This document shows positions 8,660 to 64,000 of a stretch of DNA of 64,000 nt, piece by piece; the first letter of the stretch is position 1, and each line of letters opens with the position of its first letter. The notes beneath the pieces are model-generated. The model worked only from the letters and a program-made list of their open reading frames with translations, made no database searches and was not told where the DNA came from. The stretch is from Allodiplogaster sudhausi (lineage: Eukaryota > Nematoda > Chromadorea > Rhabditida > Diplogasteridae): the NCBI GenBank assembly GCA_945643635.1, contig CALZFC010000058.1:1426001-1490000 (forward strand), in the 5' to 3' direction. Made by a program: the position numbers and the translations under genes.

Positions 8660-9805
8660 ATGTCGATCCTCAGGCCATTCAGCGTCTTCGACCTTTTCAA
8701 GTTCAACAACGTGTTAGTTCTTCATGGATTGTAACGAGAGTTTCCCTCAGCGTGCTTTCATGAGACAGCGATTATACCACGCAGTAGAAAGTGGCTTTAA
8801 TGTGTTCATTTTCAGTAACTTGGATCCCCTCACCGAAACGGTAAGCTTTCGATATTCTTAACTTGGTAATTTGCTTCTTTTTCAAATCTTTCAAGATTAT
8901 GCTAAATAAGTTGACACTTTCCAGTACGGCTTCAGCTTCTACCTCCAGTACTACGTCAACTGGCCCGAGTACTTCCAAGTCCTGGAGCACCCGTGCGGCA
9001 CCATTATGGGATACAGTTAGTTTTGATAGTTTGTTTGATCTCTTCTCATGGCATAACTTTGTAGAATTTCCCTTATACGAGGTTGTTGATGTTTCTTGTA
9101 TAGGGAGGGTATTCCCATTTGCAGTAATGGGGAAGGCGGAGGGACGGGGGGAGAACTTGCACGGCCACGTCACGGCCCTCTCCATCGCTCCCGAGTTCAG
9201 GCGACTTGGCTTGGCTGCTCAGCTCATGCAGAATCTGGAGAGTGTTTCCGAGAGGTTGGAAGAGGAAAGAGGCACTTTGATGGAGAAGAGCTTTTCTAGA
9301 AAAAGAAAATAGAGTTTCGTGAGCATAGATAAGATGTTGCGGAAATAAGTATTGTAATTGTAAAAGTGAGAATGAGGTGTCGATTCCTAAAACCACCTGT
9401 GCGCACGATTTGGGTTCGAATGGGAAAAAAAATATTTTTTTTGGTCCCCCCCCCCCTCCTTTAACTAGTATAGCGCCGTCGATTGCAGCAAGCGCTGCTA
9501 CTTCGTGGATCTCTTCGTGCGCGTGAGTAACAAAGTGGCGGTGGCCACGTACAAGAAGCTTGGATACATCGTCTACCGAGAGATCATCGACTACTACGGA
9601 GGAGCCAACGAGGAGAATGCATACGGTATCTCTTTGATTCCCCTTTTCTGCAAATTTTAACTTTGGAGTTTATATGATCAATACCCCAAGCAAATTTGGA
9701 GGAAACATTGAAAACGTTCCGGTTTCAGATATGCGGAAAGCTTTATCGGCGGATGTCGAGAAGAAGAGCGTCATACCGTTGGATCACCCCGTCTATGATG
9801 AATAG
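8660..9805 (+). CDS. naa-20: N-alpha-acetyltransferase 20, NatB catalytic subunit
   Basis: Catalytic subunit of the cytosolic, ribosome-associated NatB complex, which acetylates N-termini beginning Met-Asp, Met-Glu, Met-Asn or Met-Gln. Six exons (8660-8712, 8816-8840, 8925-9015, 9125-9254, 9489-9625, 9729-9805) give 170 residues; human NAA20 is 178. The GNAT fold is clear: DLFKFNNVNLDPLTET at the N-terminus, HGHVTALSIAPEFRRLGLAA at residues 69-88 with the acetyl-CoA loop RRLGLA, then FVDLFVRVSNKVA and KKLGYIVYREIIDYY, and the family-typical DMRKALS near the C-terminus. No key position looks broken. The partner NAA25 is not in the window. It lies 444 bases after the preceding gene and 610 before the next. 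Confidence 0.95.
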
Positions 9806-11987: not shown

Positions 11988-12131
11988 CTCTATAGCAACT
12001 TCTGTTTATGTAGCTATCATCTCTCTCCTGTAATCACCAATCGCTCCGTTCTCAAGTAAAATCTGTTATGTTTGTAGCTGTTCTTATCATGCAATGTCAC
12101 CATTAGAAATGTAGCCTTGCTACCTCTGCAG

Positions 12132-13024
12132 ATGCAAGAGAGTTCTTCCCCTCTGCATGCCATCATCGTCATGGGCGTGTCTGGCAGTGGAAAGAGCTCC
12201 CTCGCAGCAGCGATTGCCGAACGAATCAAATGGCGCTTCTTCGAGGGAGACCACTTCCATCCGTCTGAGAACGTTGACAAGATGAGCAGGGGTACGGTGA
12301 ACACGGAGGATATGGTAGTCATGGAAAGAGAGAGAGAGAGAGAGAGAAATAGAGATAGAGGTAGAAAGAATGAGTGATCAGGTGTAGAATGTTACAACGA
12401 GGATAATATCGAACATCTCGCAATTATTAGCTTCAGGCGTTCCCCTGACGGATGACGACCGCTGGGGATGGCTGAAGGCCATTCGAGATTGCATCAAAGA
12501 GAACGGCCGAGGTTCTATCTCTCTCTCTCTCTTTCTCTCTATCTCTCTTGACATCTCCATTCTCTCTTCCCTTCAGTGATCTTCTTGATCTCTCTCCTCC
12601 AGGCTCAGTGGTTCCTCCGCCGTGTCTATCGCGACGTGCTGCGCGACATCGAAGGTCGCTGTCTCTTCCTGCTCATCAATGTGGAGAGGTACAGTGTGGA
12701 TGCCTCTTTCCTTTGTTAGCTTCAGAAATAGTCTGACATTTCCGTTCTCTCTTTCTCCTTTCATCTCTACAATCCTCCGCCGCTTCGGTACGGTAGCTCT
12801 CGCTTTCCCTCCCTCCCTCATGCAGAAGTGAACTGGAGCATCGTCTCTCGTCCCGTGTTTCTCACTACATGCCGCCCTCTCTGCTCTCCTCCCAACTCGC
12901 CCTCCTTGAAGTGCCCGACCCCTCTGCCGAATCTGACTCCGTTGTCTTAGACGGGCGACAATCTGTGGAAGAACTTCTTGAGCAGACCCTGTCAATTCTC
13001 CAGGAACAAGGTGTCATTTGGTAA
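12132..13024 (+). CDS. Gluconokinase
   Basis: Phosphorylates D-gluconate to 6-phosphogluconate, feeding the pentose phosphate pathway in the cytosol. Four exons (12132-12291, 12437-12511, 12577-12688, 12826-13024) give 181 residues, the usual length. The P-loop GVSGSGKS is at residues 15-22, followed by the substrate region FFEGDHFHPSENVDKMSRG, then PLTDDDRWGWL (family LxDxDRxPWL), RRVYRDVLRD (family ALKxxYRDxLR) and LEHRLSSRVSHYMPPSLLSSQ (family RxxxRxxHFMxxxLLxSQ). The stretch VIFLISLLQAQWFL replaces the usual VxxCSAL before RRVYRD and is a divergent point; the exon 3 acceptor was chosen because it alone keeps frame. The ATG directly follows a ctgcag acceptor. Confidence 0.88.
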
Positions 13025-13625: not shown

Positions 13626-16600
13626 TTACTTTGTTGACGTCTCTTCAGTCTCAACCTGCGCTGTCTCCGGCTCTCCTCCATCCGCTTCTTTGGTAGCCAT
13701 CAAGTTAACCGAAATATCTGACTGCAAAAAGAACGTTTGAAAAAAGAACTTAATAGAGGCAAGGAAAGCGAGAGAATAGCAAATGAGAGATAGAGAGAGG
13801 AAAAGAGGAGACATAGAAAGCCCTCGCACCTGTTCTAGAGACATGTAATGGCTAACCCGTCTTGATGGTGTTCGAGTGACTGCTGGGCCGTGAGGATTAT
13901 CATAAAGCAACCAGTTGATCGATGAGTAGAAGGGATGTGCTCGAGCCTGAATGGCAAAGACAGAGGAAATAGAAAGTTAGGAAGAGAGAGAGTGAGAGAG
14001 AGAGCGAGAGAGAGAGATAGATAGAGAGAAGTCCTGGGACGGTACAAGAATCTGAAACCTGATCAAGCGTGGCTCTTTCCTCGGGATCGACAGCGAGAAG
14101 AAGAGGGAGGAGATGGCGGGCAGCCAGGGACAACTCGGTTTCTTCATCGAGGGGCAGCTCGCTCTGCCTGGATATACAAATAACCATTGGAAGAGATTGC
14201 TCTCTGCAACCTTCCCCAACCTGCCAATCCCGTGCGGAGCAGCGACGCAGAGAGGCCGGCCAATGAGAAGTTCGAAGAGAAGAGCACCGAGAGACCAGAC
14301 ATCCGAGGAGGGCGAGAGAAGATGCGGTTCTTCCAGGCATTCTGGCAACAGTTGTACATTATAAGCAGTTGGCAACTATTCGTGTCCATTGCTGTGTTCT
14401 GTGATAGACGAAGGGCCTTCGGGCTTACAACTCGGGTTTTGGAAATAGAGGCTAATTACAATTCCCACTCTATGTGAGGCTAATTACATGGAAAGTGAGG
14501 CTAATTTTAATTCCCACGCTAGGTGAGGCTAATTACAAAATATTTAAGTCTCAGTTAGCTTCTAATAAGTCTCAGTTAGCTTCTAAATTTAATCCGGACG
14601 CCAAGCGCCCGGTCCTAACATAGTCGCAAATCCGCCCGATATCGGATGCTTCCATCCATTGGCACCTATAGCTTCCTTGGCTCAGCCGGTTTAGTTACCC
14701 AAGTTTGAGGTATGCCTTGACGTTGGCATGCCGAGCCAACGTCATTTTTTCACTGCTCATGGCAGGATGGCCGTCGCTGCAGTTTTTTGTTGTACCGACG
14801 GTAAATGTGGTCAGAATAAAGTTTATTTGATGTTTGGAGTTAAAAAATTTAAACAGCTAATTTGCTTGGGAAGTCAGGCTAATTATACTGAAACTCGGGA
14901 TAATTACGTTGGAACTCAGGATAATTACATTGGAGCTCGGGCTAATTTAGTCCCGAAAAGCCTGAGTTGAAAGGTAATTATCATTAACGTTTTTGTAATT
15001 AGCATCTATTTCCAAAACCCGAGAAGTACAACATCCCTTACCTGTTTACAGCTTACATCTTTCCCCAGATTACATCTTCCCCCACCAACCGGGAGCTGCA
15101 TATCCTGCGAAAAGTGCCCGTGGAGCTCGTTCCGGATGCCATTTAGCATGGTAAGTCACGACAACATTGCCATCCGCACTCAGCAGCAGATTGTCAGGGT
15201 GAAGGTTTCTACAAGAAAGGGATTCTCAGCGAACAGTCTATGCTTACTTCCTTCCACTCAGGAATCAACTACCGTACCCCATGACGACTCCCTGGGCATG
15301 CAAGACGTAGAGCATGCTCACGACTTGGGCCGTCCAGTGGACGATGAGCGATTCGGGCAGAGGAGAACCGGCCGGCCAGCAACGACTGCCAGTCAAGAAG
15401 AAAGTTATTCAAGGGCCAGAGGCAGATTTTAGCATCCACAAAGAAACATCAATTTCTACTTATAAGTGAAAAGGATGAAATAGAAGGAACCGAGTAGCTT
15501 CCAAACGTCCTCGACATTCGCTCATTGCTCGAGCCAAGGGCATTGTCAGGGCTTCTGCAAGGGAAGACAACTTGGAAATGTCTAATGAGAGCAGCCAACC
15601 GTGTCTCCTCTTCGAGATCCTCAAATCCTCCGTCACTTCTCCGTCTTCTTTTCGTCCACTAATCGATCGATTCCCATCGAGAGAAGAACAGCAATAATTA
15701 GCTGGCATAGTGCCAGGAGAAAGCGTAACGGCGCCAACTCGAATGGGGGAAGGCGCCTCTTCCTCTTCACTCAGAATGATCGTCTCCACCGACGCAGGCA
15801 CCAGCAGATATCTTACATCAATTCTCTTTTCAAACTGCACGACGTTTCATATTGCGACACAGAGAAATATTGAAACTAATTGTAGATCAAAATTTAAAAA
15901 AACGGTAAGGTTTTCCAGTATATTAATTAAATATTCATTATTTGTTTCTTATCTGTAAAAACTATCATATTCCATACGAGTTCAATATATTTTGGGCTTC
16001 AAGCTTATCAATGGAAAATAAAATAATAAAAACCTTGCGGGTTCGAGTCGGTTTCCGGAGGAAGAAGGATGATCTCTGGAGTGTTCCTCTGCTGCCTCCG
16101 CTGCGTCCTCTCCCATTGCACAAACTAGAGCAGAGGCTGGTGCAGCTTCTGTCCCGTCGTTCGCATCCTGAAAAATCTAAAAGCCATAAAGTCAATAAAG
16201 GCATCCTTGCAAAAAATACGTTCTTTTAATCCTTTCTAAAACAATTTTTGTGAGTGAGAAAAAACAATCGCTTAAGAGCCTATTCCAATGATGAGCACAG
16301 GTCTGCATGGGATTGTATTCTATTTACAAGACCACGCGGACAAGAATGGAGAGCACTGGAACTGAAAGGCGACCCGTGCTCATGCTGGCCAATTCATCCA
16401 TGCACGTACTTCGAGAGCCTCGTTCTCGGCAACAGCCAGGCGATCGCAGTCCGCAGAGACGGAGAAGCGCAGATGCCGGCCTAAAGTACATTTCTATTTG
16501 ATCAACAAATCATTAACAAAAATAAAACTCTTAGAAGTAGAACAAGCCTTTGTAAGGATTGTCAATTTCCGGCGTAGGATCTTCTTCATCTAGATAGGCT

Positions 16601-60538: not shown

Positions 60539-63500
60539 TCAGGCTGTGATTGGCCTATCATTTCTGCGGCGAGCAAGGAGTCGACGCATTGTGTGGCGGA
60601 AGTTCTTGTTGAGACACATGTAGATGACCTGAACAGATTTCACGTTCACTCTAATGTAATGGAGAGAGCGTATAGTATAGTAGACTGCAACCATTTCATT
60701 CTGAACCCTCACCGGATTGAAGGCAGAGTGGGCGTAGCCGAGCCAGCTCGTGAGAATGAAGAGTTTGTGATGGAGAGGGACGTCGACTCCGAAGCCACTC
60801 CCGGTCATCACTCCGCGGTACACTAACACCACGTAGTACGGCAGCCAGCACGCCAAGAAAGCCACTGGAAAAGCACCAGGCAAGATTATCAGAGAGTGAT
60901 CGAAGATTTCAATGAAGTGTAGAGAGAGTTAGCATAACAAATGACTAACACAAAATGGCAGCGACTACTCGAGTGGCCCGAGACTCCCTTCGAATGGCGA
61001 GAGACTCACGACGCTTACGGCGGATTGCACGGGTCACCTGTGCATTCAGTGGTGAGATGAGAAAGAGGAAGGGGGACAGGAAGAATGCATATTTCCTTAT
61101 TTTAAATGATATTCAGAGAAACAAGGGAAATGATAAAAATTGACATCGAAGATAAAGCGACCTGAGTAGCGATGCGCCGCAGCTTGCCACGACTAATGGC
61201 ACTCGTCTTCTTCACGGGACTTCCTGGACCTCCGCCAGAGCCGGGCGAACGCTGAAGAGGATTAGGATATTGCAGGATGTAATGCAAGATATCACTATTA
61301 ACTCATGGTCAAAATATTTAAAATTAACAAAAAAAAAATGAATGGAGAAGAATGTATTTACCTCAATATTGATGTCAACGAGCGACTTCTTGCCACGGTG
61401 CGGCTCGGCCAGAACAGCGGCTCGCAGAGTCGACCACGCACTCGAACGCCTCCAATTCAATACACATTTAAATAGTTGGCAATAATCGATAACTAAATCG
61501 CGTTGAATGCACCTCGAATCGATTTCATATGTAGAATCCGTCTGATCAGTGAGTGAAGAGCCGAATGAGTTCATTGAAATTCGCCTGAATAGTCTTGATT
61601 GCCTGACGTCTCCTATGAGTTGGAATGGAAAGAACCTGTACGTCTCACTGCTGCCGGATGCTGAAGTGTACGACGAGTGCGAAGAGTTCGATGGCGGAAT
61701 CTCACAACACGGCGACGGCACTTCGAAGAGTCGGGGGACCTGGAAGTCGAGACTCTTCTTTCTTCTTACAACTAGTCTGGCCAGCTAATGGTAAGGAATG
61801 AATAGGTGTGAGTTCTCAAAGAAAGGATAAAGTAGAGACGAGCCTTGAGAGTGTTTGGAGTGGCAGCAACGGCATGATTGTTGTTGGGTTGAGCAGAGGG
61901 CGCGGAAGAGGAGGAGCTGGCAGCCATGATCATGGCGGGGGAGAGGGGCGGCGTGTTGATCGACATGATGGCAGGCACCATCAGGAACGTCGGCGGCGGG
62001 ATGCGACCCGCGCAGCCGAGGCCTCCTTTGCTACCGCTCCTTCAATTTCATTCTATCACATAAAAAAAACATGAATGTGCATGTAATTCTCTTTAAATTT
62101 CTTTTAAAAAGTCAAATTAATACCACAAAACATGTGCATGTACATATGTACATCCATAAATGTGTAATGCATACGTATGTTAGTTAATACATACATCTGT
62201 ATGTATGTAAACCATAACAATTAAGAACACAAGGGAGTGAGAGTCAAAAGAAAAACATACGCAGGGACTTTGCCGTTGCTGATGAAGCTGAAGTTCGGCC
62301 GATTGCTTCCGCGGCGGACGGCGGGAGCGGGGACGGAGAGGAGTGGACAGAGAGCAGAGGAAGAGGCCGAGGAGACAGGCGCGGGCGGAGGGGCCGTGGA
62401 TGGGGCGGACGAGGGAGAACAATTCGCGGGAGCAGAGAAGGACTGACCGAGCAGAGGCTTCGATGCCTCTTCTTCTTCATCTTCAACTCAATATTATCAT
62501 AGCACCAAGTGAGAATAGATTAGGAAAATCTATCGACAAATATACTTTCTGACTGTTTCGACGTACCGTTTCTAGCTGCGGCCAGCTCTGCCGCATCATC
62601 GTCGCAGACAGTGGAGAGGGTTGGTCGGAGAGAAGCGTGGTGAGGGACGGCGAGGGGCGGAGTCCGCAGCGACGTCTCTTCCAGCACATCAAAGGAGCAG
62701 CTGCTCCGACGACGCTCTTGAGTCACTTCTGCGAATGCCTGAATACCATTCACGCATTTATTATTCCGATTAAAAAATAAACATTGAATAGATTTTGAAG
62801 AGGCGACAAACTTTGTCGAATGCCGCCATGAGAGGAACCCCATTCGGGCTGCCGTCCATTGACAGCTTCCTTCTCTCCTCACGCCGCAAGCGCCTTTCTT
62901 CACTCAATTTTCGAAGTGTCTGAAAAACTATAATTGTGAAAAATATAAAGCAAATAAAAAATACAAATTAATTTGAAAAAAAAATGGTTTTTTTAAAATA
63001 TATTTTATACCGACCTCTGCCCCGGCCATATCATCCTCATTCCTCCTGGATGCCTTGGAGACGGTGCTGCTGCCAGCGGCAGTCTGACTCTGCATCTCTG
63101 CCTCTCGCTCTCTCGCCGCCTCGTGCTCTGCGCGAAGACCGCTCATGCTTCCGCACGAGGAAATGTCCATTGAAGGCGGGTCGGGCACTAGAAGGGTCAA
63201 TAATATCTTTATGTGCTATTTGGAAAAATTAAATAAAACGGAACAATAACTGAAAGTATAGCACGAGTGGAGGTTGTTGAACTGACCAATGCTAACACGT
63301 TTCTTAGCCGCTGCCTTCCGGTCGTGCTCGAAGGTCTCTGCGCAGATGGTAGGACTGCGCCATCTTTAGAAAGCATCTTTTTTTGTGCATAAAGAAGGGT
63401 GATGAGGGGAATTTTTAAAGAAGGGAATATAATAATAATAAAAAATTAGCTTAAAAGTCGTTTGGCTAGGACCTCTGCTGAGGCAGCTTGATGGAGTGGA

Positions 63501-64000
63501 TCTCCGGCTGCGAGGGACTGCGCTCATTCTTATGAGAGGAAGCAGTGCCAGAGCAGCCACCACTGCCACCACTCGAACGACGGGTCGGAGAGCCACTCTG
63601 AGAGCCTGTCTGGGATAGCCGAGAACCACGACGACTACGCACCTGAATAAAAGAAGGAGAGAGATAGAGAGACACAGAGAGAGAAAGATAGAGGGAGTGA
63701 GATAGAGAGAGAGATGAGACAAAAAAGACTTCCTTTCCGCAGGAAACCATAATTGTCTCTTACCTCCTCGATGATGACCCTCGGCAGACTCCTTCTCCTC
63801 TTCTCCGTCCGTCCACTCGTTCCTCCGTGGCCGAACATGTACAACTGATGGTTCCGCAGCTTCTTGAAGATCTTCACGTACATGTACACCACGATTGCAC
63901 CAGGCAGGAAGAAGGAAAGAAGAGACGAGAGCACCTGGAAAGAAGAGAAGAGAGAATGATAGAGGGCCTCGCACTGGCGGAGTGCTCACAATGTACTGCG
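60539..64000 (-). CDS. Biogenic-amine-type GPCR, 3' part (truncated by window edge)
   Basis: Only the half from TM5 onward is present; an 11-base exon end at 63990-64000 shows that more lies to the right. The exon 63764-63934 encodes TM5 and its end (SSLLSFFLPGAIVVYMYVKI, then FKKLRNHQLYMFG). Then about eight exons spell a third intracellular loop of several hundred residues, rich in Ser, Pro and Arg (for example RRGSRLSQTGSQSGSPTRR). TM6 is RESRATRVVAAIL joined to VAFLACWLPYYVV, and TM7 is LTSWLGYAHSAFNP joined to VIYMCLNKNFRHTMRRLL. CWLP, NPVIY and the short C-tail after a long ICL3 are the layout of dopamine, octopamine, serotonin or muscarinic-type receptors. Which amine cannot be told without TM3. 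The stop TGA is at 60539-60541. Confidence 0.83.
63655..63718. repeat. (GA)n tract in amine-type GPCR intron
   Basis: Interrupted GA run between the TM5 exon and the next ICL3 exon, directly upstream of the latter's acceptor (CT on the sense strand). Confidence 0.85.

Follow-up and report, generated by a model that had tools for sequence, protein, structure and literature searches.

An SL1-type leader carried as cargo by a DNA transposon in a nematode intron

Spliced leaders are regarded as coming from SL RNA genes dedicated to that purpose, and the presence, within an intron, of a 22-nt sequence differing from the SL1 leader (GGTTTAATTACCCAAGTTTGAG) at a single base raises the question of what such a sequence represents and how it arrived there. 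The site lies in the window, by which we mean the entire 64 kb of DNA that was analyzed, and an earlier reading, made from the sequence only, took it for a solitary SL1-type SL RNA gene with a variant leader, positioned antisense to its host. We arrive at a different answer: the intron feature is, almost certainly, an insertion of a non-autonomous DNA transposon that carries the leader as cargo, and not an SL gene. The parts of the site that resemble an SL RNA are the following.

14688 to 14709, plus strand: SL1-type leader with the change A7G
14710 to 14711, plus strand: GT splice donor
14718 to 14744, plus strand: perfect 10-bp hairpin (stem II)
14745 to 14750, plus strand: run of six U, not a canonical Sm site (AUUUUUUC)
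14752 to 14783, plus strand: possible 3' hairpin, from folding prediction

The leader matches SL1 at 21 of its 22 bases, the only change being A7G, and it is the sole SL1-like match in the window at up to three mismatches, with none of 100 shuffles producing one, so this part of the sequence-only reading is borne out, as is the GT donor that follows immediately. The stem next to it, described before as perfect and of 9 bp, is indeed perfect, and its actual length is 10 bp; a stem this long was reached by none of 2000 dinucleotide shuffles of positions 14710–14783, and by one of 1728 windows of 74 nt (step 37) across the 64 kb, a control that includes the site itself. The proposed 3' hairpin can form in the predicted fold, and the folding check that had been suggested gives a favorable result, the fold of 14688–14800 being better than those of 198 of 200 shuffles (z −2.32). 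The Sm-like site, on the other hand, did not survive scrutiny, as the U-run fits no Sm pattern tried: AT4-6G, RAT4-6GR and AC?T4-6G have no match within 14688–14810, and the loosest pattern, [AG]T4-6[AG], matches at 14782 only, 72 nt past the leader and in the loop of a further predicted hairpin. Of these patterns, AT4-6G, AC?T4-6G and [AG]T4-6[AG] have been applied to nematodes (PMC7986045, excerpt), and the form with a purine on either side of AU4-6G is given in an excerpt of PMC6362198. The Rfam model of SL1 (RF00198) recognizes in the window the leader hairpin only (model positions 9–25, 13.4 bits, cut-off 75), and at the gathering cut-off no Rfam family has a match anywhere in the window.

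The placement of the site in its host was read correctly.

14342 to 15089, minus strand: host intron of 748 bp, GT..AG, in a kinase-like gene, the frame being joined through AAPE

Excision of this intron keeps the reading frame (...LFAGYAAPECLEEPHLLSPSSD, continuing as VWSLGALLFELL), and the intron is supported by this in-frame joining of its flanking exons; the exon downstream has a weak Pkinase match (22.3 bits versus a Pfam cut-off of 31.7). The gene, labeled RPS6KC1-like in the sequence-only reading, is on the minus strand, and the leader is thus both intronic and antisense to it. Elsewhere, the window holds an acetyltransferase-like exon (8848–9312, plus strand), a gluconokinase-like gene (12131–13024, plus strand) and, at 60542–63985 on the minus strand, two exons that resemble rhodopsin-type receptors weakly and below the cut-off; GA/CT microsatellites are abundant in it.

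Most of this intron is occupied by a repeated element with recognizable ends.

14431 to 15023, plus strand (oriented by the leader): non-autonomous DNA transposon with terminal inverted repeats (TIRs), 593 bp, family 1, from its TIRs, shared ends and copies
14429 to 14430, no strand: left target-site duplication, AA
15024 to 15025, no strand: right target-site duplication, AA
14431 to 14461, plus strand: left TIR, CTCGGGTTTTGGAAATAGAGGCT..., from inverted-repeat search and copy comparison
14993 to 15023, minus strand: right TIR, from the same two sources

The inverted repeats as found extend over 36 nt (14426–14461 and 14993–15028) and are 92% complementary. The site does not lie alone, as had been claimed: at least 16 further copies of family 1 are present in the source genome (351.8 Mb) among the 40 of 113 candidates that were scored, 15 of them near-complete matches to a 301-bp query at 89–95% identity and one a half-length match. 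Both ends can be read in 15 of the 17 copies, the window copy included, and one end is missing in the other two. A 2-bp duplication matches in 13 of these 15, whereas shuffled partners average 2.6 and never exceed 8 of 15 in 5000 shuffles. It is the copy set that defines the duplication as 2 bp, AA in the window, and thus the element as 14431–15023; TA and TACAAC, alternative target duplications for the window, are ruled out by the same set, which places the 2 bp just outside CTCGGG...CCCGAG. With TIRs, a target duplication of fixed length and dispersed copies sharing their ends, the window element has these three properties in common with MITEs. Scans of collections of viral contigs and of genome contigs with the leader or TIR patterns returned no matches. 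One of the copies (L012) is flanked by short inverted repeats (TTGCTTATGTGTAA / TTACACATAAGCAA), as if positioned inside another small palindromic element.

That the leader is cargo follows from comparison with longer relatives of the element.

14587 to 14803, plus strand: cargo of about 217 bp, absent from the longer relatives (about −101 to +116 relative to the leader start)
14621 to 14644, plus strand: upstream block common with family B (see below), CCGCCCGAYATCGG.TGCT, possibly a PSE-like promoter part

Twelve matches to the right part of the element only (L035–L046) were taken with their surroundings, and for two of these the sequence taken contains no left end. Short matches and one nested copy aside, they match the window element only at its left end (to query position 140) and at its right end (from about position 377), and it is on this basis that the sequence between, approximately 14587–14803, is assigned as cargo. 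The ten relatives with both ends are 1.25–3.5 kb in length, all ten have a matching 2-bp duplication, and neither the leader (at up to five mismatches) nor the upstream block (at up to two) was found in any of them. The nested copy is a leader-bearing one, residing within a longer relative (L042). Among five ORF pieces of the longer relatives, one resembles DUF1258, weakly and below the threshold (21.8 bits versus 33.1), too little to assign a superfamily. An AATAAA is located at 14815–14820, just 3' of the cargo, in a part common with the longer relatives, and may be their polyadenylation signal.

What typical SL1 genes look like in this genome can be learned from a tandem array. A leader pattern allowing any base at position 7 and at most one mismatch is found at 2429 places (1408 + 1021) in the 351.8 Mb, and a control with the reversed pattern at none. 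Among the 100 listed places without further mismatch, 62 belong to the array region of C1, at 10.15–10.20 Mb, and 38 are dispersed. In three stretches sampled from the array (L055–L057 of G000:C1:10150000-10191500, 27.2 kb) there are 40 leaders, of which 35 are followed by GTACTAAT..., and a GT and a RAT4-6GR site are present in each of these 35. Unit spacing is 460 bp in 14 of the 16 gaps of one stretch (L055). The array unit is matched by the Rfam SL1 model over positions 1–103 with 41 bits, itself below the cut-off of 75. The remaining 5 of the 40 leaders belong to another repeat, or repeats, mixed in and lacking GTACTAAT, and the array switches strand; A7G separates families 1 and C (the latter described below) from the array SL1 units seen. 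No 5S rRNA was matched in the 27.2 kb at the Rfam gathering cut-off, one below which the SL1 genes themselves also fall, whereas the SL1-5S array of Caenorhabditis elegans, as an excerpt of PMC1657053 has it, contains 5S. Judging by their form, the array genes are probably the active SL1 genes, and large SL1 gene numbers are on record for Pristionchus (PMC7986045, excerpt).

Among the copies of family 1, the leader is identical to that of the window in 13 of 17, and the count of A7G, also suggested earlier as a check, gives G at position 7 in 17 of 17. In the 12 sister copies with the exact leader, GT follows in all 12, AT4-6G is present in one and RAT4-6GR in none (20–67 nt tested). The remaining statistics are based on 16 aligned rows, L024, whose right part is lost, being omitted. 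The stem-loops are not kept between copies: of the 16 predicted folds, just four retain nine or more pairs in stem II, which is perfect in the window (ten each for the window copy and L010, nine for L022, and for L011 nine interrupted by a mismatch), and by inspection L023 could also form nine. The damage consists of a 5-nt deletion common to six copies and of another change in three. Variable columns amount to 1 of 24 in the upstream block and 4 of 22 in the leader, to 11 of 35 in the stem II region, where 13 more have gaps, and to 189 of 591 overall. Conservation of the leader within the family is not significant (column-sampling p 0.11; equaled by 166 of 569 windows), and the upstream block does not stand out uniquely either, as 18 of 567 windows do equally well; these fall in two places, the other one lying near the right end. 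Decay of stems and Sm sites in all copies was what the earlier reading had said would speak against it, and for family 1 this is largely what is seen, in the stem (4 of 16, with a possible fifth) and in the absence of RAT4-6GR from all 12; the array copies are not decayed.

Family 1 is not the only mobile carrier of the leader. All of the 38 listed dispersed places were taken (L058–L094, L078 having two) and grouped by the sequence after the leader, into families A (21 places), B (5), C (3), D (4), E (1) and F (2), with 2 others, so that A and B together hold 26 of the 38. A GT directly follows 34 of these 38 leaders, and none of the 38 is followed by RAT4-6GR or by AT4-6G; in families A and B the exact canonical leader is combined with a splice donor, without a canonical Sm site. 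Family A (L059–L092) is represented by near-palindromic elements, mostly of about 1.13 kb, with the leader between the arms; the arms are 442–476 bp long and 91–99% identical in 16 of 19 copies, and TA is found on both sides in 18 of the 19 copies with both ends. Elements of family B, compiled from the five dispersed places and ten copies retrieved with a leader-holding query, measure about 0.6 kb, and all 14 copies with both ends have equal 3-bp flanks, CAG/CTG (CWG) in 13 and CAT in one. These flank counts for A and B use strict end matching; looser matching gave 13 of 19 for A and 0 of 14 for B. No two of families 1, A and B, then, agree in their ends or in the kind of duplication (2-bp, TA and 3-bp). 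When nine 450-nt stretches are compared pairwise (E ≤ 1e-3), alignment is confined in most pairs to about −1 to +24, the clear exceptions being family 1 with B, from −60 to +31 (78%), and A with two singles, to about +51 and +63. Among ten copies of family B, the leader has no variable column (0 of 22) and the upstream block has 4 of 25, which makes the block at least as variable as the remainder of the element; sampling was biased toward intact leaders, however, as the first ten copies of this family and all 38 dispersed places were found via the leader.

Over C1, C4 and part of C5, dispersed places have a rough density of 1.9 per Mb, which suggests several hundred of them genome-wide; this figure is extrapolated from 38 places and disregards C2 and C3, where none were listed. 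Family C (L058, L093, L094), with at least 1.7 kb in common, also has A7G, and aligns to the window element only from about −3 to +24. In L064, L065 and L078, four leaders belonging to two repeat types, with upstream parts in common, are followed by other sequence instead of GT, and these may be relics of trans-spliced RNA copied back to DNA.

A motif resembling GGTTGCTGC starts 40 to 55 nt upstream of the leader where present; several families lack it, and the array SL1 gene is not preceded by it at such a distance. As its distance varies by family and as it is absent there before the array gene, a common PSE at a fixed distance was rejected, and for the same two reasons calling the upstream block a PSE is not secured.

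How, then, might the cargo work? A mobile DNA element brought an SL1-type leader, a donor and an upstream block into the intron, and we infer that this module may be a portable Pol II start site with a first exon, on the grounds that leader and GT survive amid dissimilar surroundings, that none of the dispersed leaders sampled has a canonical Sm site, and that the upstream block is common to two families. The leader would mark the start of transcription, just as it does in SL RNA genes, and the RNA would either end nearby or undergo cis-splicing, with the GT as donor and an acceptor further downstream; the resulting transcript would start with a genome-encoded SL1-like leader in the absence of trans-splicing and, in the window, would be antisense to its host. 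The SL sequence of Ascaris SL RNA genes is itself an element of transcription. A portable SL promoter is made plausible by the C. elegans SL2 RNA locus, whose upstream region drives a reporter, according to an excerpt of PMC2527325. Against such a mechanism, the statistic for the family 1 leader is non-significant, the upstream block of family B is ordinarily variable, and leader-based sampling is biased. Non-autonomous elements, moreover, do not need a promoter of their own. We therefore regard function of the module as a start site and first exon only tentatively, as somewhat short of an even prospect, while the explanation as a whole, transposon cargo plus portable first exon, appears on balance probable. 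A bolder version, in which several families of DNA transposons took up the leader with its donor and keep it under selection as a mobile promoter and first exon, their cis-spliced transcripts imitating trans-spliced mRNAs and perhaps escaping silencing or gaining SL-dependent translation, we consider rather unlikely.

A strong rival to the first-exon explanation is passive capture, in which a transposon took an SL RNA gene or a piece of one, in a Pack-type manner, and spread it as a non-functional pseudogene. The cargo is about the size of an SL RNA gene with its promoter, and the window copy retains the donor, the 10-bp stem, the U-run and the 3' hairpin, while the stems are broken in most copies, the leader of family 1 is not significantly conserved, and the upstream block of family B is not conserved to a special degree. 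Capture has more difficulty with the cargo showing no similarity to the array SL1 gene beyond about −1 to +24 (E ≤ 1e-3), with the leader residing in three transposon families with different ends, and with exact leaders being found amid dissimilar surroundings. It is a possibility to be taken seriously, if one that we incline to doubt.

The proposal of the earlier reading, with a transposon as the means of transport to this place, is a functioning, dispersed SL RNA gene whose leader is variant. It would account for leader, donor, stem, U-run and hairpin being present in the order of an SL RNA, and variant SL1 leaders are known on nematode mRNAs (PMC1657053, excerpt). The window copy, however, has no RAU4-6GR, a site found in 35 of 35 array genes, the predicted folds of just a quarter of the copies (4 of 16) have at least nine stem II pairs, and Rfam SL1 covers the leader hairpin only, with 13.4 bits versus 41 for the array gene. 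Lacking a canonical Sm site and with stems not kept, this highly improbable explanation was rejected. What endures of the sequence-only reading is an SL1-type leader with its donor, intronic and antisense; what falls is the SL RNA gene, given that the leader is transposon cargo, that all 17 copies have the variant base, that a canonical Sm site is lacking, that the stems are mostly broken and that an array exists elsewhere. Least credible, and close to impossible, is a retrocopy, left when a trans-spliced mRNA was reverse-transcribed and returned to the genome together with its leader, as proposed for leaders in flatworm LTR and LINE elements (PMC12582326, excerpt) and as the 4 of 38 dispersed leaders without GT might suggest, since the window leader is followed by GT and not by exon sequence, since about 100 bp upstream of it belong to the repeated unit in the aligned copies, and since the element has the ends of a TIR DNA transposon. 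Its terminal inverted repeats and the upstream region that the copies share contradict a retrocopy.

Transposon cargo with a possible first-exon role, the explanation that we prefer, has consequences for how leaders are interpreted. If the modules are transcribed, an SL1 sequence at a 5' end no longer proves trans-splicing in such a species, and operon calls made from SLs, like cDNA methods based on primers, would need correction. Even if they are silent, they suggest that different transposons have taken up an SL module repeatedly, and “lone” SL genes could be explained as transposon cargo. Word searches, limited to open papers, returned no description of DNA transposons bearing an SL leader module, and the exact G7 leader string was not found in the open-paper texts searched.

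Of known systems, the nematode SL1 RNA genes (RF00198; the C1 array) likewise possess a 22-nt leader, from which that of the window is one base off, a GT and downstream hairpins, whereas the window feature is without a canonical Sm site, is unlike the array gene downstream and is dispersed by a transposon. The closest parallel of leaders residing within mobile elements is presented by the flatworms, with 597 such loci; as excerpted, PMC12582326 describes these as primarily LTR and LINE elements with partial leaders, possible relics of trans-spliced retrotransposon RNA, whereas here DNA transposons carry a complete leader with a donor. A parallel of another sort is presented by Pack-MULEs, plant Mutator elements with gene fragments (named in an excerpt of PMC3169594), which are likewise TIR elements with a host-like interior. 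Their cargo consists of fragments of protein genes, while the window element carries an SL leader module. Among transposons that hold an RNA motif as cargo, the nearest is Tm1-HH of root-knot nematodes (Mutator/Foldback), as an excerpt of PMC3169594 portrays it: it is likewise a non-autonomous TIR element with internally repeated ends and a host RNA motif, and it differs in its 9-bp duplications and histone hairpin, in place of which the element described here has duplications of 2 bp and an SL1 leader; membership in the same superfamily is not claimed.
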